Shown here piece by piece: positions 43,133 to 61,152 of a DNA stretch of 64,000 bases. This DNA is from Cohaesibacter haloalkalitolerans (GTDB lineage: Bacteria > Pseudomonadota > Alphaproteobacteria > Rhizobiales > Cohaesibacteraceae), in contig NZ_QNUM01000006.1 in NCBI RefSeq assembly GCF_003574655.1, positions 1 to 64,000 on the forward strand. The letters are read 5' to 3'. Made by a program: the position numbers and the translations under genes. A model generated the notes under the pieces. It had not been told where the DNA came from. It made no database searches and was given only the letters and a program-made list of their open reading frames with translations. Each line of letters starts with the position of its first letter. The first letter of the stretch is position 1.

Positions 43133-43187
43133 TTGACTTGCAAGCGGTGGTTTCCTAGAAATGCCTTGTACGTTATAACGCACAAGG
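43133..43187 (+). promoter_or_regulatory. Promoter and operator of the glycyl radical enzyme gene
   Basis: TTGACT (43133-43138), a 17-bp spacer and TAGAAA (43156-43161) form a good sigma-70 promoter. At the expected transcription start lies a near-perfect 24-base palindrome (43164-43187) with one mismatched pair: CCTTGT on the left, core CGTTATAACG at 43171-43180, ACAAGG on the right. The same core box precedes the XRE-cupin gene, which suggests repression by that regulator. Confidence 0.7.
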
Positions 43188-43229: not shown

Positions 43230-45617
43230 ATGTTGAAAACGGTGACTGGCGTCTCGGAACGCATCGAGCGGCTACGGCAAAACTACGTCAATACAAAGCC
43301 TTCCATCTGTTATGAGCGCGCCAGACTCTACACCGAGTCGCACAAGCGCACCGAGGGCAAGTCGGTCATCCTGCGCCGCGCTGAAGCCTTCCATGATTTC
43401 TGCGCCAAATTCGAGGTGCGTATCTTCGAGGATGAGTTGATCGTCGGAACCGCTGGCAGGTTTCGCCGCACGGGCATCCTGACGCCGGAATATTCCTGGA
43501 AATGGGTCGACAAGGAGATGGATACCTTCCCGACCCGCCCGCAGGACCCCTATCTGATCACGCCGGATCAATGCGCCACCATCCGCTCCGAGATCTTCCC
43601 CTACTGGCATGGCAAGTCACTGGAAGAACATTTCCTGGCGGCGCTGCCGGAAGAGACGGCCCGGATTGCGGTCGATACGGGCATCATCGACAATGATTCC
43701 AAATGGCGTCAGGCGGTGGGCGAGATCACGCCGGATTATGAGGGCCATCTGTTCGTCAAGGGCTATGGCGGCATCCTGAAAGATGCCGAGGAAAAGCTCG
43801 CCGCGCTCGACTATCTCAACGCCGAGGATATCGACAGGATCGATTTCTACAAGGCGACGATCCTGTCGGCGAAAGCCATCATCCTGTTGGCCAATCGCTA
43901 TGCCGATCTTGCCGAAGGCATGGCAGCCGAAGAGCAGGACGACGCCCGCAAGGCCGAATTGCTGGAGATCGCCCGCGTCTGCCGTCGGGTGCCGGAGTAT
44001 CCACCGCAAAGCTTCCACGAAGCCACACAATTCATCTGGTTTGTCCAGCTGGGTGGCATCATCACCGAAAACCCGCTGGCGCTCAATCCCGGCCGTTTTG
44101 ACCAGTTCATGTATCCTTACTATGCTGCGGACATGGACAGTGGCAAGCTCGACAAGGCCGGGGCCAAGGAACTGATCCATGCGCTTTGGCTGAAATATTC
44201 CGAATGGGTCTGGACCATCTCGGAGAACACCACCGGCTATTTCGCAGGCTACAACCAGTTCCAGAACCTGACCGTCGGTGGCAAGAAGCGCGACGGCAGT
44301 GACGCCACCAATGAGTTGACCTATCTCTGCCTTGAGGCAACCGACGAGGTGCGCACCCATCAGCCGGGGCTCAGCGTGCGCGTGCAGTCGGACTGTCCGC
44401 AGGAATTTCTTTACGCGGTGACCGATCTGGTCAGCAAGGGAACGGGCTTCCCGGCCATTCACAATGATCAGGCCGGAACCCAAATGCTGCTGCAGGCCGG
44501 ATACGAACCCGAAGACGCTCGCGACTGGAACAACTGCGGCTGCGTCGTGCCGCACTTCCGCCAGACCGGCCAATGGACCAGCGCTGTCAATGTCAACTTC
44601 GCTGCCGCAATGGAATATGCCCTCAATGAAGGCAAGAGCCGCCTGACAGGCGAGAAGATGGGGCTTGATGCCAAGCCGCTGGCCAGCTACGCAAGTTATC
44701 AGGAAATCGAGGATGCCACCTTCGAGCAGGTAGGCAACCTCATCCATCATTCCGTGGTTTCCACCGTCATCGCTCAGAAACTGCATGCGGAAATGGTGCC
44801 GCGACCGTTCCTGTCCACCTGTATCGGCCATTGTCTGGAAGAGGGTAGGGATCTTTCCCGCGGTGGCGCGAAATACAATGTCGGCCCCGTGCTGACCGGT
44901 ATCGGCCTTGCAGTGGTCGCCAACTCGCTGGCCGTCATCAAGAAGCTGGTGTTCGAGGACAAGGTCACCACGCTCGCCGAACTGGACGCGGCGATGAACG
45001 CTGACTGGGAAGGCCATGACGCCCTGCGCACGAAGGCGCTGGCGGTGGTCAAATATGGCAATGACGACGACTATGTCGACGCCATCGCCCGCGATCTGGC
45101 CAACTACTATTATCGCAAGACCCGGGCCTACAAGGACAATTTCGGCTCGCCCTTCAACTCGGCCTTCATGGGCATTTCCAACTACATCCCGACCGGCCGG
45201 ATCGTCGGCGCCACCCCCTGCGGACGCAAGGCGACCAAACCGATCACCGAGGGCGTTTCGCCCTATGCCGGTAGCGACGTGAAGAGCCCGCTGGCGGCGA
45301 TGCGCTCCAGCGCCAAGATGAACCACGATGTCCATACCGGCGGAACGCTGCTCAACCTGCGCCTGAGCGAAGATCTGGTCAGCACTCCGAAGGGCAAGCG
45401 CGATCTGGGCAGTATCATCCGGGCCTATTTCTCCCTTGGCGCCTTCCACGTGCAGTTCAACACCCTGTCGACAGACGTGTTGCGCAAGGCCCAGAAGAAC
45501 CCCGAAGATTACAAGGATCTGCTGGTGCGGGTTGCGGGGTACAGCACCCAGTTTGTCAACCTGTCACCGGAAATGCAGGAAGCGATCATCGCGCGCTCGG
45601 CCCATGGCAGCTACTGA
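43230..45617 (+). CDS. Glycyl radical enzyme of the PFL-like superfamily, specificity unknown
   Basis: 795 residues from the ATG at 43230, with GGAACAGGA just upstream; an ATG at 43209 adds seven. The whole length matches the PFL2/glycerol dehydratase-like group. The C-terminal glycyl radical motif RVAGYS places the radical at Gly770. The active-site loop is NNCGCVVPHF, with Cys438 as the expected thiyl residue. Characterised eliminases (choline lyase, glycerol, hydroxyproline and isethionate enzymes) have Glu two residues after this Cys, but here it is Val, which argues against that chemistry. It is oxygen-sensitive by family rule. The activase follows with an overlap. The substrate is unknown; no proC, microcompartment or sulfite genes accompany it. 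Confidence 0.93.
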   Translation: MLKTVTGVSERIERLRQNYVNTKPSICYERARLYTESHKRTEGKSVILRRAEAFHDFCAKFEVRIFEDELIVGTAGRFRRTGILTPEYSWKWVDKEMDTFPTRPQDPYLITPDQCATIRSEIFPYWHGKSLEEHFLAALPEETARIAVDTGIIDNDSKWRQAVGEITPDYEGHLFVKGYGGILKDAEEKLAALDYLNAEDIDRIDFYKATILSAKAIILLANRYADLAEGMAAEEQDDARKAELLEIARVCRRVPEYPPQSFHEATQFIWFVQLGGIITENPLALNPGRFDQFMYPYYAADMDSGKLDKAGAKELIHALWLKYSEWVWTISENTTGYFAGYNQFQNLTVGGKKRDGSDATNELTYLCLEATDEVRTHQPGLSVRVQSDCPQEFLYAVTDLVSKGTGFPAIHNDQAGTQMLLQAGYEPEDARDWNNCGCVVPHFRQTGQWTSAVNVNFAAAMEYALNEGKSRLTGEKMGLDAKPLASYASYQEIEDATFEQVGNLIHHSVVSTVIAQKLHAEMVPRPFLSTCIGHCLEEGRDLSRGGAKYNVGPVLTGIGLAVVANSLAVIKKLVFEDKVTTLAELDAAMNADWEGHDALRTKALAVVKYGNDDDYVDAIARDLANYYYRKTRAYKDNFGSPFNSAFMGISNYIPTGRIVGATPCGRKATKPITEGVSPYAGSDVKSPLAAMRSSAKMNHDVHTGGTLLNLRLSEDLVSTPKGKRDLGSIIRAYFSLGAFHVQFNTLSTDVLRKAQKNPEDYKDLLVRVAGYSTQFVNLSPEMQEAIIARSAHGSY

Positions 45618-46521
45618 CAAGGCAAAAGACGGCACAATGGGAACGGTCCTGCAGATGCAGGACTATTCCATTCATGATGGAGACGGGGTGCGCACCACCA
45701 TCTTTCTGGCCGGTTGCGGCCTCCGGTGCCAGTGGTGCGCCAACCCTGAAAGCTGGACCCAACACAGGAAACTGGCCTATCACGCCCACAAGTGCCGGGG
45801 GTGCCAAAGCTGCCGGACGGTCTGCCCTGAAGGCCTCGACCCGGCGGCGGGAGATTTTGATGCGACCCGCTGCACCTTCTGCGGGGACTGCGTGGCCGCC
45901 TGCCCTGAAAAGGCTCTGCAATTGGCTTGCGAGCAAATGGATGCCGACGCCATCATGGAGCAGATCCGCCGCGATGAGATCTTCTTTCGCCATTCCGGCG
46001 GCGGGGTGACCTTTTCGGGTGGAGAACCCTTTGTCCAGCACCAGTTCCTGCGCAGTCTGATGGCCGGGTGCGAGCGGCTGGGTGTTTCGGTCTGGGTAGA
46101 AACTTGCGGTTTCTTCAAATGGGAAGCCTGTCAGGACCTGATGGCAGGCATCGACCACATCTTCTTCGACATCAAGCATATGGATAGCGAGAGCCATCGC
46201 CGCTTCACCGGCCAGGGCAACGAGACTATCCTTGACAATGCCAAAAGGATTCATGCCTCGGGCGTTCCCATGACAATCCGCATTCCCCTGATTGCGGAAG
46301 TCAATCTGGAGGAAAACAATCTTGAGGCAACCGCCCGCTTCATGCGCGATCACCTGCCCGGCAGCCGCATCGAACTGCTGCCCTATCATGAGCTGGGCAA
46401 GGCCAAATACAGCGCCTTTCGCATGGCGGACAGCTTCCATTCCTTCACGACGCCGACAGAGGCGCAGACCGCCGTTGCCTACAGCATTTTCGACCGTTAT
46501 CAGATCGAGCGTTATCAGTAG
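45604..46521 (+). CDS. Glycyl radical enzyme activating protein (radical SAM)
   Basis: 305 residues from the ATG at 45604, which overlaps the end of the enzyme gene; ATG 45637 is an equally good start. The radical SAM cluster motif is GCGLRCQWCANP (CxxxCxxC). An inserted ferredoxin-like domain carries two further 4Fe-4S cysteine sets (KCRGCQSCRTVCP and CTFCGDCVAACP), as in activases of the non-PFL glycyl radical enzymes. It should use S-adenosylmethionine to place the radical on Gly770 of the upstream gene product. It ends seven bases inside the convergent regulator gene. Confidence 0.95.
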   Translation: MAATDKAKDGTMGTVLQMQDYSIHDGDGVRTTIFLAGCGLRCQWCANPESWTQHRKLAYHAHKCRGCQSCRTVCPEGLDPAAGDFDATRCTFCGDCVAACPEKALQLACEQMDADAIMEQIRRDEIFFRHSGGGVTFSGGEPFVQHQFLRSLMAGCERLGVSVWVETCGFFKWEACQDLMAGIDHIFFDIKHMDSESHRRFTGQGNETILDNAKRIHASGVPMTIRIPLIAEVNLEENNLEATARFMRDHLPGSRIELLPYHELGKAKYSAFRMADSFHSFTTPTEAQTAVAYSIFDRYQIERYQ

Positions 46522-47045
46522 CTGACAATATTCTGGAAGACGACCCGTTCGCTGGCGGCCCTGTAGCCATGGGGCTGGTCGGCAAAAAAGCGGAACGTGC
46601 CTCCTTCGTCGATGGCCTGCCAGTGCCCGTCCGACAGGATCTCAAGCTCTCCCAAAAGTACGATGACGCTTTCGATCACCCCGTGGGCGTGGGGCTCTGA
46701 CATCTGGCAGTGATGGTTGGAAAGGGTGATCTCGTGGATTTCGAAATTCACCGCTGAACTGTAGGGAAAGACCGACACCATTTTCATGCCGGGATCTTCA
46801 GGAACGCTCAGGCCCTCGTTGGGATCGGTCCCCAGATCGAGAAAGGCCGAGAAGGAGGTTTCCAGTCCTGATGCAATCTGCCAGAGCTTGGCGATGGTGG
46901 GGCTTGATTCTTCGCGCTCGATCTGGCCAAGCATGGCCTTGGAGACCCCGGTCAATTTGGCAACCTCATCAAGGCTGAGCTGGCGCTGGGCCCGGATGGT
47001 CTTGAGATGGGTCGCTACACTGTGCTTGAACTTGTTGGCCGACAA
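46515..47045 (-). CDS. XRE-family regulator with C-terminal cupin domain
   Basis: 176 residues from a TTG at 47045, preceded by GGAAAGAGG. An N-terminal HTH (SLDEVAKLTGVSKAMLGQIE, about 20-40) is joined to a cupin sensor domain (about 100-172; CQMSEPHAHGVIESVIVLLG and GGTFRFFADQPHGYRA). Such proteins repress catabolic genes and sense a small ligand in the cupin barrel. It is convergent with the activase, overlapping it by seven bases. Its promoter and the glycyl radical enzyme promoter share the box CGTTATAAC, so it is the likely regulator of that pair. Confidence 0.92.
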   Translation of the reverse strand: MSANKFKHSVATHLKTIRAQRQLSLDEVAKLTGVSKAMLGQIEREESSPTIAKLWQIASGLETSFSAFLDLGTDPNEGLSVPEDPGMKMVSVFPYSSAVNFEIHEITLSNHHCQMSEPHAHGVIESVIVLLGELEILSDGHWQAIDEGGTFRFFADQPHGYRAASERVVFQNIVSY

Positions 47046-47070: not shown

Positions 47071-47092
47071 CCTGTGCTCCCGTTATAACAGG
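47071..47092 (-). promoter_or_regulatory. Likely autoregulatory site of the XRE-cupin gene
   Basis: CCTGT (47071-47075) and ACAGG (47088-47092) flank the box CGTTATAACA at 47081-47090, whose centre GTTATAAC is self-complementary. The box would cover the -10 region of the regulator promoter. It matches the core of the operator at 43171-43180. Confidence 0.55.
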
Positions 47093-48053: not shown

Positions 48054-49079
48054 ATGAAACGCTCAGTCAAACTGCTGGCCGGTGTCGCCGCCGTAGCCCT
48101 TTCCGCAATGGTTTCTTTTGCCGCCGAGGCTGAAACCCTGCGCTTTGCGACCACATTGCCGGAAGCAGACAATCCAGAAACCCATGCCATGAAGGCATTC
48201 GAGCAGTATGTCGAATTCCACACCAACGGCGAAATCGACGTGCAGCTGCTGCACGGTGGCGTTGGTGGTGACCGCGAAATTCTCGAAAGCGTGCGCAATG
48301 GCATTTTCCAGATGACCGCCACGACGGACGGAGCGCTTGCCTCCTTCTATCCCGGCGTGCAGGTTTTCTCGACGCCATATCTGTTCCGTTCCACCCGCCA
48401 TGCGGTTGAGTTCATGAACAACTCCCCGGTCATGGGTGAGTTCGTGGCTGATGTGGAGAAGCAGGCAGGCCTGCGCATCATAGGCTTCGCTGCAGACGGC
48501 TTCCGCAACTTCGTGAACAACAAGCATCCGATCAAGACCCCTGCCGACGTGGAAGGTCTCAAGCTGCGCTCCATGGAAAGCCCGGTCATGATCGCGCTGA
48601 TGAAGAGCCTCGGGGCTGCCCCGACGCCAATCCCGTTCCCGGAAAGCGCCATGGCCATCCGTCAGGGTGTTGTTGATGGGGGTGAAAACCCGCCGTCCAC
48701 CGTCATCAATGGCGGCTGGGGTGAAGTGATCAAATACATGTCGCTTGACGAGCATATCTTCTCGGCCGTGTTTGCCTATGCCAACCCGTCCTTCCTTGAC
48801 GGTCTGAGCGAACAGAACCGCGCCGCCGTGCTCGATGGGGTCAATCTCTACACCACCATCATGCTTGCAGGCAAAGGTCAGGGCTACCTCACCGATACCC
48901 AGCGCATTCGTGATCTGGGCGTGGAAGTCTATGTGAACTCGCCTGCCGAGAAAAAGGCATTTGGCGAGAAGGCCCAGAAGCCGGTCCGCGAATTCCTCGC
49001 CAAGGAGCTTGGCGCTGAATATGTAGACAAGTTTCTGGCCGCTGTTTCGGAAACCGAAACCCAACTCTACGGCAAATAA
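48054..49079 (+). CDS. TRAP transporter substrate-binding protein (DctP family)
   Basis: 341 residues with a Sec signal peptide (MKRSVKLLAGVAAVALSAMV...AEA). The mature protein is a DctP-type binding protein. ADVEGLKLRSMESPVMIALM contains the conserved Arg that forms a salt bridge with the carboxylate of the ligand, and PFPESAMAIRQGVVDGGENP is the second family block. The ligand is therefore probably a carboxylate, or less often a sulfonate. It is the first gene of a six-gene operon under the GntR-type promoter. Confidence 0.95.
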   Translation: MKRSVKLLAGVAAVALSAMVSFAAEAETLRFATTLPEADNPETHAMKAFEQYVEFHTNGEIDVQLLHGGVGGDREILESVRNGIFQMTATTDGALASFYPGVQVFSTPYLFRSTRHAVEFMNNSPVMGEFVADVEKQAGLRIIGFAADGFRNFVNNKHPIKTPADVEGLKLRSMESPVMIALMKSLGAAPTPIPFPESAMAIRQGVVDGGENPPSTVINGGWGEVIKYMSLDEHIFSAVFAYANPSFLDGLSEQNRAAVLDGVNLYTTIMLAGKGQGYLTDTQRIRDLGVEVYVNSPAEKKAFGEKAQKPVREFLAKELGAEYVDKFLAAVSETETQLYGK

Positions 49080-49174
49080 TCCCGTGTCGTAACGTCTGGC
49101 TCCGCCGGTTCCAAACCTCCCTTCAAACACTCCTTCGAGGGAACCGGCGGGCCTTACCCAAATGGACATTTCTC

Positions 49175-49678
49175 ATGGCATCTTCCCTGACGCAGACCTA
49201 TCTGCGCTGGACAGCAAAGCTGTCGAACGCCACGGAATATGTGGCGGTGGCGATATTCGCCGGGATCGTTCTGGTCAACTTCATGGCCGTTGGGGCCCGA
49301 TATGTGCTGGCCGACCCGATCGGCTGGAGCGAAGAAGCCCTTCGCTATGCAATCGTCTGGGCGGTCTATCTGGTCGCCGGAGCCACCTTCCGCCACGGTG
49401 AGCAGATGATGATCGATCTCATCGTCATCATTCCTTCCGACAGAATCCGGCGCATCGCCGCCTTCCTGTCGCTGCTGACGACACTGGTGCTGGCAGCAAT
49501 CGTGGTTGCCCTCGGCATTCCGTTCCTGATGGATACCGGGCAGGTTTCCCCATCCATGCGCCTGCCGATGTGGATCCCCTACGCCGCAGTGGTCGTGGGA
49601 TATCTGATGATCGCCATTCAGGCGATCGCCGGTTACATCGAGCAGCCCGTCCTTGGCAATAAGGAGACGGCACAATGA
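49175..49678 (+). CDS. TRAP transporter small permease (DctQ family)
   Basis: 167 residues with four membrane helices. The family pattern is present (NATEYVAVAIFAGIVLVNFM, VLADPIGWSEEALRYAIVWA, FRHGEQMMIDLIV). It forms the small membrane subunit with the DctM-type protein, whose ATG overlaps its stop by four bases. Confidence 0.93.
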   Translation: MASSLTQTYLRWTAKLSNATEYVAVAIFAGIVLVNFMAVGARYVLADPIGWSEEALRYAIVWAVYLVAGATFRHGEQMMIDLIVIIPSDRIRRIAAFLSLLTTLVLAAIVVALGIPFLMDTGQVSPSMRLPMWIPYAAVVVGYLMIAIQAIAGYIEQPVLGNKETAQ

Positions 49679-50952
49679 GCCCCGCAGCAATCTTCTCGGC
49701 CTTCTTCTTTCTGGTGCTGATCGGTTCCCCCATCGCGGTCGCACTGGGCCTCACTGGCGCATCGGCGGCCTGGTTCGCCCACCTGCCGATGGTCATCATC
49801 CCGACGCGCTTCTTCAGCTCGCTGGACAACTTCTCGCTTCTGGCCGCTCCCTTTTACATCTTTGCCGGCGAGGTCATGAACCGGGGCGGGATTACCGAAA
49901 CCCTCATCACCTTTGCTGCCAAGATCACCCGCTTCGTGGCCGGTGGTGCCGCCTATGCCAACATTCTGGCATCGGTGCTGTTTGCCGGTATCTCCGGGAC
50001 GGCGATTGCCGATACCGCAGCCCTTGGCAAGATCTTCATCAACGGCATGCCCAAACAGGGCTATACCAAGGAATTCTCTGCCGCCGTTACCGTTGCCAGT
50101 TCGATGATCGGGCCGATCATTCCCCCGTCGGTCATCATGATCGTCTATGCCTCCGTGGCTCAGGTCTCGATCATCAAGCTGTTCGTCGCCGGTATCGTGC
50201 CGGGGCTGATGCTCGGTGGGGCCTGCGCGGTCATCGTGCTGATCACGGCGCTGACCAAGGGGCTGCCCAAGGGCGAGATCAAGGCGGTCGACAAATCCGA
50301 CAAGCAGCTGGCTTTTGAAACGGCTCTGGTCTTCTCGATCCCGATGTTCATCGTCTTCGGCACACTCTCCGGTGTCTTCACGGCAACCGAGGCCGGTGGC
50401 ATTGCCTGCGTCTATGCGCTGGTGATTGGCCGGTTCGTGCTCAAGACCCTTTCGGGCCGCAGTGTGCTTGCCTGCATGAGGGCATCCATGCGCACCACCG
50501 CCAGCCTTTATCTGGTGATCGCCGGTGCATCGGTCCTGTCCTACATTCTGACTGTCACCGGTGCCATTTCGTCGGTTCGGTCGCTGACGGTGCTGTTCTC
50601 GGACAACCAGACCATCTTCCTGTTCTTCGTGCTGGGCATCCTGCTCATCGCCGGTTTCTTTCTTGAGCCGGGGGTTCAGGTGCTGCTGCTGGCGCCGATC
50701 TTCCTGCCCATCTCCCGCGGGCTCGGCATCGACGAAATGCAGTTTGCCATGGTCTTCCTGCTGTCTGGCACCATGAGCCTGATGACCCCGCCTGTCGGCA
50801 TCTGCCTCTTCGTGGCAGCGCAGATCGGCGAGATAAGCATCGGACGCATGTTCTGGGCCATCCTGCCATTTCTCGCCGCCCAGATCGCCGCAATTTCATT
50901 CCTCATCATATGGCCGGATCTCGTCACGTTCCTGCCCAACCTGGTCAACTAG
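49675..50952 (+). CDS. TRAP transporter large permease (DctM family)
   Basis: 425 residues with about twelve membrane helices. The sodium-coupled DctM core is visible: ILASVLFAGISGTAIADTAA, SSMIGPIIPPSVIMIVYAS and SLMTPPVGICLFVAAQIG. With the small permease and binding protein it makes a complete sodium-driven TRAP importer. The dehydrogenase gene begins two bases after its stop. Confidence 0.95.
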   Translation: MSPAAIFSAFFFLVLIGSPIAVALGLTGASAAWFAHLPMVIIPTRFFSSLDNFSLLAAPFYIFAGEVMNRGGITETLITFAAKITRFVAGGAAYANILASVLFAGISGTAIADTAALGKIFINGMPKQGYTKEFSAAVTVASSMIGPIIPPSVIMIVYASVAQVSIIKLFVAGIVPGLMLGGACAVIVLITALTKGLPKGEIKAVDKSDKQLAFETALVFSIPMFIVFGTLSGVFTATEAGGIACVYALVIGRFVLKTLSGRSVLACMRASMRTTASLYLVIAGASVLSYILTVTGAISSVRSLTVLFSDNQTIFLFFVLGILLIAGFFLEPGVQVLLLAPIFLPISRGLGIDEMQFAMVFLLSGTMSLMTPPVGICLFVAAQIGEISIGRMFWAILPFLAAQIAAISFLIIWPDLVTFLPNLVN

Positions 50953-50954
50953 CT

Positions 50955-51944
50955 ATGACAAAGCAAAAAATCCTTGTTCTGACAGAACAGTTTACAAACG
51001 AATGCCCGCTTTTCGATCCGTTGCGTGAAGCCGGATATGAGGTGGTGGTCAACGAAACCAGCCGTCTTCCCGACGAAGCCTCTCTCAAGGCCATGCTGGC
51101 AAGCGGCGTGGTGGCAACCATTGCCGGTGGCGAGCCCTACACCCCTGACGTGATCGCCAACGCCAGAGATCTCAAGATCATCGCCCGTTGGGGCGTTGGG
51201 TATGACAAGGTCAATGTCCCCGCAGCGACCGCCCATGACATCCCGCTTGCCATGGCCTTTGGCCAAAACCATGAGAGCGTCGCAGAATACGCCCATGCCA
51301 TGGCCCTGTCGCTCGCCTGTGGCATAGGCCGCCGCGATGCCATGGTTCATGGTGGCACCTGGATGTTCGACGGCTTCCACCCGGGCCTATGGGAACGCAC
51401 CGCCGGTCTCATCGGTCTTGGCCGCATCGGTGGCGCCATGGCGCGTCGCCTCAAGGGCCAGTCCATGCGCGTGCTGGTTTTCGATCCGTATGTGAGCGAA
51501 GAACAGGCAGAAGCGGCTGGCGTCGAGAAATGCGATCTCGATACGTTGCTGGCCGAGAGCGATCTGATCTCTGTGCATGCCCCTTCAACGCCCGAGACGC
51601 GCCACACGCTGAATGCGGAAACCTTCGCCAAGATGAAGGATGGCGTCATTGTCATCAATACTTCGCGCGGGCCGCTCATTGACGAGACGGCGCTGGTCGA
51701 TGCCCTCAAGTCCGGCAAGGTCTACGGCGCTGGTCTCGATGTGTTCGAAACCGAGCCGCTTCCGGCCGACAGCGCCCTGCGCAGCTGTGACAACGTCATT
51801 CTGAGCCCCCATGTCTCCGGCATGGACAAGATGGCCGAGAAGCGTGTGACCATGCGCTGCGTCAATAACATTCTGGCCTGGTTGCACGGCGATCCCAAGG
51901 AGCTGCTGCCCTATGTCGTCAACCCCGAAACCCTGAAACTCTGA
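50955..51944 (+). CDS. D-isomer-specific 2-hydroxyacid dehydrogenase
   Basis: 329 residues from the ATG at 50955; an upstream frame overlaps the permease. The NAD-binding motif is GLIGLGRIGGAMARRL, and INTSRGPLID, DVFETEPLPADSALRSCDNV and LSPHVSG carry the catalytic Arg, Glu and His regions. It resembles phosphoglycerate dehydrogenase-like enzymes but lacks the C-terminal ACT regulatory domain. It probably oxidises, or makes, a 2-hydroxyacid derived from the TRAP substrate. The substrate is not known. Confidence 0.9.
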   Translation: MTKQKILVLTEQFTNECPLFDPLREAGYEVVVNETSRLPDEASLKAMLASGVVATIAGGEPYTPDVIANARDLKIIARWGVGYDKVNVPAATAHDIPLAMAFGQNHESVAEYAHAMALSLACGIGRRDAMVHGGTWMFDGFHPGLWERTAGLIGLGRIGGAMARRLKGQSMRVLVFDPYVSEEQAEAAGVEKCDLDTLLAESDLISVHAPSTPETRHTLNAETFAKMKDGVIVINTSRGPLIDETALVDALKSGKVYGAGLDVFETEPLPADSALRSCDNVILSPHVSGMDKMAEKRVTMRCVNNILAWLHGDPKELLPYVVNPETLKL

Positions 51945-51982
51945 ACGGCAAGTCCAGTAAGTCTCATTGGAGGAATAAGAAA

Positions 51983-52918
51983 ATGACCAAAGAAATCTCC
52001 GGTATCATCCCGGTTGTGCTGACGCCGTTCACCGACGACAACAAGATCGACTGGGCAGGCTATGAACGCCTCATCGAATGGTATCTCGAAAACGGTGCCG
52101 AGGCCCTGTTTGCGGTTTGCCAGTCTTCCGAAATGCTGTTCCTCAGTGTCGAGGAACGGGTGGAGCTGGCCCGCTTCACGATGGAAAAGGTCGCCGGGCG
52201 CGTGCCGGTCATGGCTTCCGGCCACATTTCGGATTCGCTGGAAGACCAGAAGACCGAGCTTGGTGCCATGGTCGAAACCGGTGTGGACGCCATCGTTCTG
52301 GTGACCAACCGTCTCGATCCGGAAAAGAAGGGCGCCGAAGCCTTCCGCAGCAATCTCGATGCACTGCTCGACTTCCTGCCCGCCGACATGCCGCTTGGCC
52401 TCTATGAATGCCCGGCTCCCTATCGCCGTCTGATGAGCGACGAGGAAGTGACCTACTGCGCCCAGTCCGGCCGCTTCGTCATCGTCAAGGACGTCTCTTG
52501 CGATCTGGAAACCGTCACCCGTCGCGTCGGGCTGGTCAAGGGCACACCGATGAAGATCTGCAACGCCAACGCGGCCATTGCAACTCCGGCCATGTTTGCC
52601 GGATCTGCCGGTTTCTGCGGCGTCTTCAACAACATCCACCCCGACCTTTACCGCTGGGTTCAGGATCACGGCAAGGACCATCCCGAGCTGTGCGAAGAGC
52701 TTTCGGTCTTCCTCGTCCTCGCCGCTCAGGTCGAGCCGATGGGCTATCCCAAGATGGCCAAGCTCTATCACCAGCGCATGGGCACCTTCTCCAGCATCCA
52801 CAGCCGCGTGGTTCCCTTCGACATCGAAGAGAAATTCTGGGCGCTTGGGGCGGTCATCGATCGTATCGAGCAGGGCACTGAGTTCTATCGCAAGAAGATC
52901 AGCGCTCTTTCGGAATAG
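51983..52918 (+). CDS. Dihydrodipicolinate synthase/N-acetylneuraminate lyase family enzyme
   Basis: 311 residues, a class I aldolase barrel. The Schiff-base lysine is Lys169 in VIVKDVS and the catalytic tyrosine is Tyr141 in LYECPAPY. The GTTE substrate motif of the usual family appears as CQSSEML, so the keto-acid pocket differs from DapA. It is probably not lysine biosynthesis. With a transporter, dehydrogenase and sugar kinase it more likely splits or dehydrates a keto-deoxy sugar acid (inference). AGGAATAAG stands before the ATG. Confidence 0.9.
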   Translation: MTKEISGIIPVVLTPFTDDNKIDWAGYERLIEWYLENGAEALFAVCQSSEMLFLSVEERVELARFTMEKVAGRVPVMASGHISDSLEDQKTELGAMVETGVDAIVLVTNRLDPEKKGAEAFRSNLDALLDFLPADMPLGLYECPAPYRRLMSDEEVTYCAQSGRFVIVKDVSCDLETVTRRVGLVKGTPMKICNANAAIATPAMFAGSAGFCGVFNNIHPDLYRWVQDHGKDHPELCEELSVFLVLAAQVEPMGYPKMAKLYHQRMGTFSSIHSRVVPFDIEEKFWALGAVIDRIEQGTEFYRKKISALSE

Positions 52919-52929
52919 GAGGCAAGGGG

Positions 52930-53847
52930 ATGTCGATCACGGTATTCGGCTCGGTCAATCTGGACCTGACGGTTTCCGTCGACCTCATGCCCGAACCGGG
53001 CGTTACCAGCCATGCCACCGGGTTCCTCAAGGGGCTCGGTGGCAAGGGCGCCAATCAGGCTGTCGCGGCAACCCGATTGGCCCGCTGTCCGGTGCGGTTC
53101 GTGGCAGCCATCGGGGCGGATGCCTTCGGGGCAAGCCTCAGGGCCAGTCTTGAAGGGCTGGGCGTCGATACCGATCATCTCGTTACCATGCCGGATCATG
53201 ATTCCGGCATGGCTCTCATCCATGTCGATGCGACCTCCCAGAACACCATCACGGTTGTGGGAGGTGCCAATATGGCGTGGCCAGCCGACGGACCGGATGC
53301 CGAGTGCTTCGAAGGCTGCAAGGTGGCTTTGTTTCAGCTGGAAACGCCACAGAATGCAACCATCGCGGCCATGCGCAAGGCGCGAGCAGCCGGAGCCACG
53401 GTCATTCTCGACCCCGCTCCGATTGCTGCCACAGGCATGGATGCGCTTCTGGCAGAGGCTGACATCATCACCCCAAATGAAACCGAAGCGGCGGGCCTTT
53501 CTGGCAAAATGCCCGCCACCTTCGATGAGGCGCTGGATGTCGCACGCAGCCTCTGCGCGCGCGGACCGCAGACGGTCATCGTCAAGCTCGGAGCAAAGGG
53601 GCTGGCCTATGCCTGCAAGGATGGCCGGAGCGGCAAGTTGGAGCCCTTCAAGGTGAATGCAATCGATACAGTGGCCGCCGGTGACAGCTTCAATGGCGGG
53701 CTGGCTGCCGCGCTGGCCGAAGGCATGGAGCTGGACGCGGCCCTGCGCTTTGCCTCCGCTGCCGGAGCTCTGGCCACCACCAGAAAGGGCGCAAGCGAGG
53801 CCGTACCAGACCGCGCAGACGTCGATGCTCTGATCCTGAAAGGCTAG
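52930..53847 (+). CDS. PfkB/ribokinase-family sugar kinase
   Basis: 305 residues. The N-terminal PfkB signature is GFLKGLGGKGANQAVAATRL, and the ATP/anion-hole signature with the catalytic base Asp is DTVAAGDSFNGGLAAALAEG. The length and NVDL-type opening (GSVNLDLTVSV) resemble ribokinase. It phosphorylates a sugar or sugar acid, probably the product of the preceding enzymes. It is the last gene of the TRAP operon and is followed by a terminator. Confidence 0.92.
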   Translation: MSITVFGSVNLDLTVSVDLMPEPGVTSHATGFLKGLGGKGANQAVAATRLARCPVRFVAAIGADAFGASLRASLEGLGVDTDHLVTMPDHDSGMALIHVDATSQNTITVVGGANMAWPADGPDAECFEGCKVALFQLETPQNATIAAMRKARAAGATVILDPAPIAATGMDALLAEADIITPNETEAAGLSGKMPATFDEALDVARSLCARGPQTVIVKLGAKGLAYACKDGRSGKLEPFKVNAIDTVAAGDSFNGGLAAALAEGMELDAALRFASAAGALATTRKGASEAVPDRADVDALILKG

Positions 53848-58491: not shown

Positions 58492-59904
58492 ATGACCGTC
58501 CTCCCCTCTGCACTCCATAAGCCGATCACCACGCTCACCAGTCTGACCTATGATGAGCTGGCGATTGGCCAATGTGCCAGCGTATCCCGGATTCTGACGC
58601 AGACAGATATCAATCTGTTTGCGACGATGTCTGGTAACGTTGATCCGCTTCATTTTCGTGAAGGGGCTGGCAACGCTATGGTTCAGCAGCCGGTTGGCTA
58701 TGGCATGTGGGCTGGCGCTCTGTTCTCGGGGTTGCTGGGCACGCGCCTTCCCGGTCCGGGGACCATCTACCACAAGCAGAATCTGAAGTTTCTGGCGCCG
58801 ATCCTGCTTGGCGCTCATGTGACGGCCTCCGTGACGGTGGCTGCCAAGAAGGTGACACCCGGGGGGTGTCATCTGGTGGAACTGGACTGTGCGCTGATCG
58901 ACCAGACGGGCAGTTTGCTGGTCGAAGGCTCGGCCACGGTCATTCCGCCACTGGAACATCTGGATCAGGATGCACAGAGCCTGCCGGACCTGCAGTTCAT
59001 CGCCCACGACCAACTCGACATATTGACGGCGAAATGCGCGGACCTTGATCCGCTGCCGACAGCCGTCATCTATCCCTGCGATCGCACCTCGCTGGAAGGA
59101 GCCTGCGATGGTGCTCGTCTCGGTCTGATCGAGCCGGTTCTGGTTGGTCCGCTGGATGTGATTACGGCTCTGGCGCGCGAAAACGGGCTCGATATTTCCG
59201 CTTTCCGCTTCATCAATGCACGGCATGAAAAGGACGCCGCGGCCAAAGGCGTGGCGCTGGCAAAAGCCGGAGACGTGGGAGCTGTCATGAAAGGTTCGCT
59301 GCACACCGACGAACTGATGGCGGCGGTTGTCCGACGTGACGGCGGCCTGCGCACCTATCGCCGTATCAGCCACGTTTTCGTGGTCAGCGTGCCGACCTAT
59401 CCAAAGCCCCTGTTGATCACCGATGGCGTCATAAATATCTTCCCGAATGCCGATGACAAGGCGCATATCATTCAGAATGCCGTTGGTCTTGCCAATGTGC
59501 TCGGGGTCAAAACGCCGAAGGTGGGCATTCTGTCCGCCATCGAGACGGTGAACCCCAAAATCATTTCCACCGTTGATGCGGCCGTTCTGTGCAAGATGGC
59601 AGAACGCGGCCAGATCAAGGGTGCAATTCTTGACGGACCTTTGGCTTTCGACATTGCAATTTCCAAGGAAGCTGCATTGACCAAAGGCATCAAATCCCAG
59701 GTGGCAGGTGATCCGGATATCCTTCTGGCTCCGGACCTTGCTTCCGCAAACATGCTGGTCAAGCAGCTCGCTTTTCTGTCCCATGCCGATGCCGCCGGTA
59801 TCGTGCTGGGGGCTGCTGTTCCGGTAATTCTGACCAGTCGTGCCGACAGTCTGTCGGCTCGCCTTGCTTCATGTGCCTTGGCTGTTTTGTTGTCCAATAA
59901 CTAG
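58492..59904 (+). CDS. Bifunctional MaoC-like enoyl-CoA hydratase/phosphate acetyltransferase
   Basis: 470 residues, a natural fusion. Residues about 15-150 are a MaoC/hotdog domain with the hydratase motif (DINLFATMSGNVDPLHF, then YGMWAGALFSGLLG). Residues about 160-465 are a phosphotransacetylase domain (VMKGSLHTDELMAAVV, SHVFVVSVPTYPKPLLITDG, ILDGPLAFDIAISKEA). It should convert acyl-CoA and phosphate to acyl phosphate, which the acetate kinase encoded 45 bp downstream turns into ATP. Such fusions occur in alphaproteobacteria. Whether the MaoC half is active on a particular enoyl-CoA is not known. Confidence 0.9.
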   Translation: MTVLPSALHKPITTLTSLTYDELAIGQCASVSRILTQTDINLFATMSGNVDPLHFREGAGNAMVQQPVGYGMWAGALFSGLLGTRLPGPGTIYHKQNLKFLAPILLGAHVTASVTVAAKKVTPGGCHLVELDCALIDQTGSLLVEGSATVIPPLEHLDQDAQSLPDLQFIAHDQLDILTAKCADLDPLPTAVIYPCDRTSLEGACDGARLGLIEPVLVGPLDVITALARENGLDISAFRFINARHEKDAAAKGVALAKAGDVGAVMKGSLHTDELMAAVVRRDGGLRTYRRISHVFVVSVPTYPKPLLITDGVINIFPNADDKAHIIQNAVGLANVLGVKTPKVGILSAIETVNPKIISTVDAAVLCKMAERGQIKGAILDGPLAFDIAISKEAALTKGIKSQVAGDPDILLAPDLASANMLVKQLAFLSHADAAGIVLGAAVPVILTSRADSLSARLASCALAVLLSNN

Positions 59905-59949
59905 ACGCGGACCATCCTGGCATTGCAGTTTGAATAGAAAGAAAAAACG

Positions 59950-61152
59950 ATGACAAACATTAAAAAAGGCGCTCTGCTGGTCCTGAACAGTGGATCCTCA
60001 AGCGTGAAATTCACGGTTTTCCAGATCGGTGATGGTGAGCAGAAGATTGCGCTCTTCTTTGGGGGGCAACTGGACGGTATCGGCTCTTCAGCCAAGCTGA
60101 AGGTCAAGACTGCCAAGAAGGAACTGCTGGCAGACGAGTCCTGGGCTCATCTGGATCAGGGCACCGTTCCTGCCATCCTGCCGCATCTGCTCGAGTGGAT
60201 CGAAAGCAAGCTGCCCGCCGACCTGCCGCTGATCGGTGCCGGTCACCGCGTTGTGCATGGTGGGGAAGCCTTCGACAAGCCGGTGCTTATCAATGACGAG
60301 ATCATCGAGAAGCTCGCAAACCTTGCTCCGCTGGCTCCGCTGCATCAGCCGCAGAATGTGGCCGCCATCAAGGCACTCGCTGCCAGCCGTCCGGATCTGC
60401 CGCAGGTTGCCTGCTTCGACACCGCCTTCCATCGCACCATTCCGGCCGTCAACAGCACCTTCGCCATTCCGAAGAAATATACCGACGCTGGCGTTCGTCG
60501 ATATGGCATGCATGGCCTGTCCTACGAGTATATCGCCTACAACCTGCGTCAGAACAAACCCGACCTTGCCAAGGGCAAAGTCGTTGTTGCACATCTGGGC
60601 AGCGGCGCCAGCCTTTCCGCTCTGAGTGATGGCGTCAGCATTGACACCTCCATGGGCTTCTCCGCCCTTGACGGCATTCCGATGGGCACCCGTCCGGGCA
60701 GCATGGATCCGGGTGTCCTAGTCTATCTGATGCGCGAATACAACATGGACGTCAACGATCTGGAAAAACTGCTCTACTACAAGTGCGGCATTCTGGGCAT
60801 TTCCGACATCTCCAACGACATGCGCGACATCGAGGAGAATCAGGAGCCGGGCGCCGTTCTGGCTCTGGACATCTTCTGCCAGCGCACCGCCAAGCAGATT
60901 GCCTCTCTGGCCGTTTCCCTCGGCGGGATTGACGCTCTGGTCTTTACCGCAGGTATCGGCGAAAACGGCCCGATCATCCGCGACAAGGTCTGTGCCGACC
61001 TGGCATTCATGGGCATCAAGCTTGATACCGCCAAGAATGACACCCGCGGTGTTGAACTGATTTCTGCCGAGGATTCCGTTCCGGTTCTGGTCATCCCGAC
61101 GGACGAAGAATTCATGATCGCCAAGCATGCGGTCAACATCCTGTCTGCATAA
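59950..61152 (+). CDS. ackA: Acetate kinase
   Basis: 400 residues with the standard family blocks: LVLNSGSSSVKFTVFQ at the N-terminus, GAGHRVVHGGEAF, FDTAFHRTIPAV, YGMHGLSYEYIAY, VVVAHLGSGASLSAL and FTAGIGENGPIIRD. It phosphorylates ADP from acetyl phosphate. It forms a two-gene operon with the MaoC-Pta fusion and ends at a strong terminator. Together they provide fermentative ATP or acetate assimilation. Confidence 0.97.
   Translation: MTNIKKGALLVLNSGSSSVKFTVFQIGDGEQKIALFFGGQLDGIGSSAKLKVKTAKKELLADESWAHLDQGTVPAILPHLLEWIESKLPADLPLIGAGHRVVHGGEAFDKPVLINDEIIEKLANLAPLAPLHQPQNVAAIKALAASRPDLPQVACFDTAFHRTIPAVNSTFAIPKKYTDAGVRRYGMHGLSYEYIAYNLRQNKPDLAKGKVVVAHLGSGASLSALSDGVSIDTSMGFSALDGIPMGTRPGSMDPGVLVYLMREYNMDVNDLEKLLYYKCGILGISDISNDMRDIEENQEPGAVLALDIFCQRTAKQIASLAVSLGGIDALVFTAGIGENGPIIRDKVCADLAFMGIKLDTAKNDTRGVELISAEDSVPVLVIPTDEEFMIAKHAVNILSA

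Follow-up and report, generated by a model that had tools for sequence, protein, structure and literature searches.

Newly assigned glycyl radical enzymes (GREs) have repeatedly uncovered missing anaerobic pathways, among them those of choline, hydroxyproline, isethionate, and skatole. In the available text of PMC7077986, a Cys-x-Glu motif is described as conserved among the GRE eliminases, with its glutamate as their usual base. Here we describe a GRE in which valine occupies that position. It is encoded in a 64,000-nucleotide stretch of DNA from Cohaesibacter haloalkalitolerans (hereafter the window), which lies on contig C21 of a 5.0 Mb genome, and its closest solved structure is choline lyase (CutC), to which it is 40% identical. 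The enzyme and its relatives, referred to here as CVVP after the loop residues from the thiyl cysteine onward, form a uniform GRE clade with a changed catalytic loop and no assigned function in the libraries searched. We put a probability of roughly 0.6 on the reading that CVVP is a separate, isofunctional GRE lacking the Cys-x-Glu base, which carries out an unassigned reaction on an amine or amino-acid derivative and is encoded in a self-regulated cassette that has spread horizontally among amino-acid-fermenting anaerobes and into marine alphaproteobacteria. The clade is of interest for its unusually uniform pocket, its well-known anaerobic hosts, and its predicted operator.

The enzyme and its thiyl loop

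The window protein has both a PFL-like barrel (Pfam PFL-like, 722 bits) and a C-terminal Gly_radical domain (108 bits) with the RVxGY motif, here RVAGYS, and its own radical-SAM activase is encoded by the adjoining gene. It is an oxygen-sensitive radical enzyme. It is full length and has an intact motif around Gly770, as the first-pass annotation of this DNA, made from the sequence alone, had described. The thiyl loop reads NNCGCVVPHF. The Cys-x-Glu of the eliminases is replaced by Cys438-Val439-Val440, and the adjacent cysteines of pyruvate formate-lyase (PFL) are likewise absent, since Gly precedes Cys438 and the other loop cysteine, Cys436, lies two residues before it. Residues are numbered from the ATG at 43230, which matches the Met at which the open reading frame (ORF) of the Cohaesibacter marisflavi enzyme begins; with the alternative upstream start, ATG 43209, the thiyl Cys and glycyl Gly would be residues 445 and 777. 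The second PF02901 protein of the same genome (C22:100194) is of the PFL type, with adjacent cysteines.

Relatives were collected by a pattern scan of one genome per species over 84,980 species. The scan yielded 206 relatives, and the best 80 were retained; one of its six patterns contained NNCGCV, and none included the residue at +2 from the thiyl Cys. Three relatives from Clostridia genomes and two from a plasmid collection (Peptoclostridium acidaminophilum, 61.5%, and Acetoanaerobium noterae, 64.5%) brought the number to 85, and the nearest one fetched was that of C. marisflavi (94%). The loop [N/S]NCGCVVPH and the glycyl motif were found in one frame in 84 of the 85 (72 with N and 12 with S), the remaining relative, L022, having the loop only. 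The GRE frames of L022 and L043 are broken in these assemblies. Because each of the 84 relatives whose frame contains both motifs has Val at +2, its occurrence there is not a chance event or a sequencing slip. The Val at the base position that the first-pass annotation had singled out is thus a property of the clade, and close relatives do keep CGCVVP, the check it had proposed.

Most of the best 80 of the 206 relatives are from Clostridia. The others are from further Bacillota, three alphaproteobacteria, and four metagenome-assembled genomes (MAGs), one of Tolumonas, two of Propionibacteriaceae, and one of Synergistaceae; the phyla represented are Bacillota, Pseudomonadota, and Actinomycetota, plus that of the Synergistaceae MAG. 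Known carriers include P. acidaminophilum, Sedimentibacter, Intestinibacter bartlettii, and Clostridium carboxidivorans. When 90 GRE rows from the window's own genome and carrier genomes were aligned, 41 (30 distinct) were CVVP, all 28 other non-PFL rows (27 distinct) had Glu at +2, and 21 were PFL rows with adjacent Cys. Five further GRE stretches outside those rows comprised four with Cys-x-Glu and one PFL. No GRE with Val at +2 turned up in a search of the open-licence literature. Three GRE-like stretches in genomes G390 and G389 (L144, L145, and L142) have Cys-Gln-Glu or Cys-Trp-Glu loops, and their printed motifs did not include the usual RVxGY; they are possibly related to the non-glycyl radical enzymes of PMC11528403.

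Conservation, pocket, and phylogeny of the CVVP clade

Conservation was assessed in 83 rows, comprising the window protein and 82 relatives (three incomplete ones were left out), at 55.5 to 94.5% identity. Invariant in 83 of 83 rows were the pocket-mapped residues Ser157, Glu165, Phe338, Phe344, Thr450, Asn454, and Ile649, as well as His377, Asn435, Cys436, Cys438, Val440, His442, Met647, and Gly770. Gln161 was variable, with 73 Gln, 7 Asn, 2 Ser, and 1 Gly. Such invariance over this range of identity suggests that the clade acts on one substrate, and CVVP is very probably a distinct isofunctional clade. Loss of a catalytic residue might instead mark an inactive or regulatory pseudo-enzyme, which we consider highly improbable because a dead enzyme would drift, while no row departs from the others at Cys438, Gly770, or the pocket columns and an activase gene accompanies the enzyme at 80 of 80 loci.

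The pocket was mapped by alignment, using CutC rows and the HypD residue numbers given in the available text of PMC7077986. The CutC Tyr, Asp, Phe, Phe, Glu, Thr, and Tyr columns fall on Ser157, Glu165, Phe338, Phe344, Val440, Thr450, and Asn454, respectively. An acid is therefore retained as Glu165 at the CutC Asp column; CutC and the N-methyl-4-hydroxyproline dehydratase-like rows, whose substrates are ammonium compounds by their structure names, have Asp or Glu there, and Glu is found in the latter rows too. In CutC, this Asp lies near the choline ammonium. From these columns we infer a substrate that would bear an amine and have no hydroxyl to deprotonate.

A divergent lyase of choline or another quaternary amine, with Glu165 or water replacing the Cys-x-Glu base, is quite unlikely. 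The enzyme falls 327.5 bits short of the CutC cut-off, and the Tyr, Glu, and Tyr columns of CutC are Ser, Val, and Asn. In addition, three carrier genomes (G391, G392, and G396) have a CutC-type GRE too (L086 at 1642.5 bits, above the CutC cut-off, and L106 and L109 by tree), and neither a microcompartment nor an aldehyde dehydrogenase was noticed among the named neighbors, at which no search for them was aimed.

In the tree, the CVVP clade formed one group with a support of 100 and a stem of 0.66. Its nearest neighbors were CutC and the N-methyl-4-hydroxyproline dehydratase-like rows, the order among these not being settled. Rows from VIA-align served placement only, and a family missing there proves nothing. 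The alphaproteobacterial sequences (those of the window, C. marisflavi, SZUA-538, and Oleispirillum) cluster together next to Anaerotignum, within Bacillota, and this nesting suggests transfer; acquisition of the alphaproteobacterial copy from Bacillota would be the simplest reading. At E<=1e-100 the enzyme was detected in 1 of 385 alphaproteobacterial genomes, namely the window's own, and at E<=1e-230 in 4 of 391 Clostridia-class genomes, one of which was the chosen center. The statement that such enzymes are uncommon in alphaproteobacteria thus stands for this enzyme, to which the count was confined.

The CVVP unit, its probable operator, and its genomic setting

The genes and sites of the unit are collected in Table 1. 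The activase and the XRE-cupin regulator are the only frequent partners of the CVVP enzyme: an activase is encoded within 1 kb after the GRE gene at every one of the 80 loci, and an XRE-cupin protein within 3.5 kb of it, at varying positions, at 47 of them. The unit thus consists of the GRE and its activase, with an XRE-cupin regulator in about six of ten loci, so that the same kind of regulator does recur near the relatives, as the first-pass annotation had asked. The dedicated two-cluster activase it described was also recovered, with Radical_SAM and 4Fe-4S dicluster matches. This protein scored 320.5 bits against the NCBIfam glycyl-radical enzyme activating protein subfamily (cut-off 174.35) and fell under the cut-offs of the listed substrate-specific activase models. 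Among 77 clustered activase ORFs, which include a few activases of neighboring GREs and some trimmed starts, 42 had at least two CxxCxxC motifs, one had a single motif, and 34 had none. Because the GREs of these 34 are similar, the dicluster insert seems to be dispensable or the activase to have been swapped.

Table 1. Features of the CVVP unit in the window
Feature	Position	Strand	Basis or remark
Palindromic operator TTGTACGTTATAACGCACAA 5' of the GRE gene	43166..43185		Putative regulatory role
Glycyl radical enzyme, 795 aa	43230..45617	+	Thiyl Cys438, Val440 at usual Glu position, glycyl Gly770
Radical-SAM activase with ferredoxin-like dicluster insert	45604 or 45637..46521	+	NCBIfam, Pfam Radical_SAM and 4Fe-4S dicluster
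XRE-cupin transcriptional regulator, convergent to the GRE-activase pair	46515..47045	-	HTH_3, Cupin_2
GTTATAACG site 5' of the XRE-cupin gene	47081..47089	-	Probable autoregulation

A likely operator, TTGTRCGTTATAACGCACAA, precedes the GRE gene. Within the 64 kb of the window, three matches to GTTATAACG were found, where 0.03 would be expected; they fall on two sites, the GRE operator and the one 5' of the XRE gene. Over the 80 loci, GTTATAAC occurred 27 times in 50.6 kb of DNA upstream of GRE and XRE genes versus 15 times in 1,423 kb elsewhere, and it was present in 22 of the 48 loci holding an XRE gene and in 0 of the 32 without one. The operator had first been seen by eye in the upstream DNA of the window and 11 loci, all 11 of which were included in this test; 15 of the 22 loci with GTTATAAC had not been inspected before the motif was chosen, and 7 had. 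Among 64 control palindromes with one G-C pair per half, only CTAATTAG gave a higher ratio (2 versus 1), GTTATAAC being second (27 versus 15).

The 16-base core was also searched in whole genomes. In that of the window, no match other than the GRE promoter had fewer than two mismatches, and one two-mismatch site was found on contig C13. Of 13 relatives, nine had a core site located at either the GRE or the XRE gene; it was the genome's best site in seven, whereas in G395 one other site equaled it and in G387 two others did. The single core site of G391 lies on contig C37, which bears none of its five GREs, and G386, G394, and G396 had no core site. The XRE-cupin protein would be predicted to bind the GTTATAAC site, the regulon looks local, and an operator with local regulation is likely. 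Any compound able to free the XRE-cupin protein from GTTATAAC should be identical with or close to the substrate, which offers a practical route to the inducer.

A core match was also noted in Sedimentibacter hydroxybenzoicus (L173:3640), 57 bases before a gene that, from its sequence, we take to encode a sodium:alanine/glycine symporter-like protein. Within 350 bases upstream of 29 other such symporter-like genes (L176-L204), no GTTATAAC core was found, and by a hand estimate about one 12-base site of this kind is expected per genome by chance; the L173 site may be such a chance match.

The neighborhood was surveyed by clustering 1290 ORFs, taken from the 80 loci and from part of the window. 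The clustering took an antisense ORF over the GRE in L005, L006, L041, L042, L056, and L067, and therefore neighbors were counted by tblastn. Beyond the GRE, activase, and XRE-cupin families, no ORF family was found in more than 12 of the 80 loci, and so no pathway emerges. The absence of recognizable pathway genes, noticed in the first-pass annotation, accordingly holds in the window and, as a rule, at the loci of relatives. MATE exporters, M20 hydrolases (9 of 80 loci), D-serine ammonia-lyase (L031 and L082), diaminopropionate ammonia-lyase (L057 and L065), histidine-degradation genes (3 of 80: L083, and HutG in L071 and L061), and 4-hydroxyphenylacetate decarboxylase (HPAD) beside the GRE (L020 and L058) were each sporadic. 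The P. acidaminophilum locus has an amino acid racemase. Taken together, the neighbors give a weak indication of a role in the catabolism of amino acids and amides.

Whether relatives keep the same neighbors was another proposed check. Beyond the unit, the window and C. marisflavi (L004) have in common genes for a TRAP transporter, a GntR protein, a 2-hydroxyacid dehydrogenase, and a ribokinase-like protein; of these, in Bacillota loci only the dehydrogenase (L019 and L023) and ribokinase-like (L061) families were clustered. At 48054-53847 of the window, the unit is followed, much as in L004, by the TRAP transporter and 2-hydroxyacid dehydrogenase genes together with DapA-like and ribokinase-like ones, which probably constitute a separate catabolic operon. 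Adjoining phosphate acetyltransferase-like and acetate kinase-like ORFs, named from reading the ORFs, lie at 58492-61152. In L083 (3770-8930), histidine-degradation genes stand directly 5' of the XRE-GRE-activase unit; HutH was confirmed by NCBIfam, and the urocanase, formimidoyltransferase, and cyclodeaminase were named from sequence. In L031 and L040, a DUF5058 protein and a partner without a Pfam match, the latter also in L149, form a small membrane pair with adjoining M20 or amidohydrolase genes. The pair may serve to take up N-acyl or D-amino acids; L031 has a D-serine ammonia-lyase too.

The metabolism of the hosts was compared between 25 carriers and 40 control Clostridia taken by handle number, in a test uncorrected for lifestyle, genome size, or relatedness. 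Gly_reductase was found in 15 of 25 carriers versus 4 of 40 controls (Fisher P 4e-5) and urocanase in 14 of 25 versus 4 of 40 (Fisher P 1e-4), a difference that shows lifestyle at best. MttB, a marker of methylamine and betaine use, was examined in the same sets, and on its counts, given below, an N-methylamine or betaine substrate was rejected.

These hosts and neighbors bear on a GRE decarboxylase, in which the thiyl radical would take a hydrogen from, or oxidize, a small carboxylic or amino acid of Stickland fermentation, CO2 would leave, and the product would be excreted as p-cresol, skatole, and toluene are. Carriers often ferment amino acids, HPAD genes adjoin two CVVP members, and an excreted product requires no downstream genes. 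Moreover, among the solved GRE loops printed, which did not include those of benzyl- and alkylsuccinate synthases, the only exception to Glu at +2, and the only hydrophobic residue there, is the Leu of arylacetate decarboxylase (7e7l, Cys-Val-Leu). On the other hand, the available text of PMC9248008 has IAD requiring Glu502, and HPAD is said there to require Glu505. The CVVP clade also groups with eliminases, apart from the HPAD and IAD rows (arylacetate decarboxylase is absent from the tree), and no conserved Arg occupies the mapped pocket columns. A decarboxylase is therefore doubtful, ranking second among the reaction classes.

A base-free isomerase, mutase, or epimerase would take the hydrogen and return it after rearrangement, needing neither base nor leaving group. 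This would fit both Val440 and a unit without pathway genes. B12 mutases are numerous among amino-acid fermenters, which would benefit from a counterpart that does without B12. We know of no GRE with isomerase, mutase, or epimerase activity, however, and positive sequence evidence was lacking, which makes this alternative improbable.

Proposed function and comparison with known glycyl radical enzymes

We propose that the XRE-cupin regulator would sit on the GTTATAAC operator and repress the GRE and its own gene, and that it would leave the operator when its cupin domain binds the substrate, a small amine-bearing compound of amino-acid catabolism. The activase would then generate the Gly770 radical, which would give the Cys438 thiyl radical, and this would take a hydrogen from the substrate, held by Glu165, Gln161, Thr450, and Asn454 beside Phe338 and Phe344. 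The group activating the abstracted hydrogen would be the amine (or a carboxylate leaving as CO2) rather than a hydroxyl, so that no Cys-x-Glu base would be needed, hence Val440. The product would enter existing metabolism directly or be excreted, and for this reason no pathway genes would be needed. The alphaproteobacterial copy would have been transferred from Bacillota.

The window enzyme probably catalyzes a reaction not yet assigned. The chances that its substrate is a small amine or amino-acid derivative appear about even on sequence grounds, and the combined proposal, in which such a compound would be catabolized by radical chemistry without the Cys-x-Glu base under local XRE-cupin control, falls slightly short of that. 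Any exact reaction class can be put forward only tentatively; amine-assisted elimination is ranked first, as a possibility ahead of decarboxylation.

Several observations weigh against the reading of CVVP as a self-regulated cassette for an amine or amino-acid derivative. No XRE gene lies within 3.5 kb in 33 of the 80 loci, some of them truncated by contig ends; four of these 33 have a GntR-FCD family gene just 5' of the GRE, and the P. acidaminophilum locus has a GntR gene. With up to two mismatches, a reversed control gave at least as many matches as the operator did in 12 of 14 genomes, and two-mismatch sites are therefore not trusted. The pocket was deduced by aligning the enzyme with CutC and HypD, and its mapped columns contain no Arg or Lys carboxylate clamp, which weakens decarboxylation. 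Neighboring genes vary between loci, each kind being present in few. When the two alphaproteobacteria are left out, Gly_reductase is found in 15 of 23 carriers and urocanase in 13 of 23, and the link to amino acids may reflect lifestyle, genome size (carriers being larger), or relatedness. MttB was not enriched (1 of 25 carriers versus 4 of 40 controls), which counts against an N-methylated substrate.

The first-pass annotation, right on the facts and mostly so on their meaning, had named high-identity clustering with a characterized family sharing the same pocket residues as what would remove the novelty. No such clustering was found: the window enzyme scored under every substrate-specific NCBIfam cut-off. 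The best equivalog was CutC (722.5 bits versus 1050 for TIGR04394), with pocket columns changed at Ser157, Glu165, Val440, and Asn454. HypD gave 569 bits (NF043068, 1100), the sulfopropanediol enzymes HpsG and HpfG 626.9 and 505.2 bits (NF048011 and NF048009, each 1000), HPAD 318.7 bits (NF033715, 1150), and IAD 393.6 bits (NF033718, 1100). PFL was ruled out by its scores and by a loop without adjacent Cys-Cys.

Compared with the known families, CVVP has the superfamily and the glycyl domain in common with PFL (C22:100194), which differs in its Cys-Cys loop, is 23% identical, and occupies a separate branch. Benzyl- and alkylsuccinate synthases are 28-30% identical to the window enzyme. Arylacetate decarboxylase, HPAD, and IAD, at 25-33% identity, likewise occur in amino-acid-fermenting hosts; arylacetate decarboxylase also has a hydrophobic +2 residue, whereas the HPAD and IAD rows retain Glu and fall on another branch of the tree. 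The HypD residues His160, Asp278, Ser334, Asp339, Glu436, Tyr450, and Thr645 correspond to Glu, a gap, Phe, Gln, Val, Asn, and Ile, the changes at His160, Asp278, and Glu436 being among the grounds for rejecting HypD, and no proC gene was noticed near the window enzyme. In CutC, Cys-x-Glu stands where CVVP has Cys-x-Val, and its Tyr, Asp, and Tyr columns are Ser, Glu, and Asn; the CVVP gene lies in an XRE-cupin unit, with no microcompartment noticed among the named neighbors, at which no search for one was aimed. The N-methyl-cis-4-hydroxyproline dehydratases (8id1 and 8iof), to which rows L130 (1154.6 bits versus 8id1) and L134 (by tree) were assigned, retain Cys-x-Glu and have Arg at the Ser157 and Gln161 columns, but they lie in the same part of the tree as CVVP and have in common with it the CGC start of the loop and a Glu at the Glu165 column.

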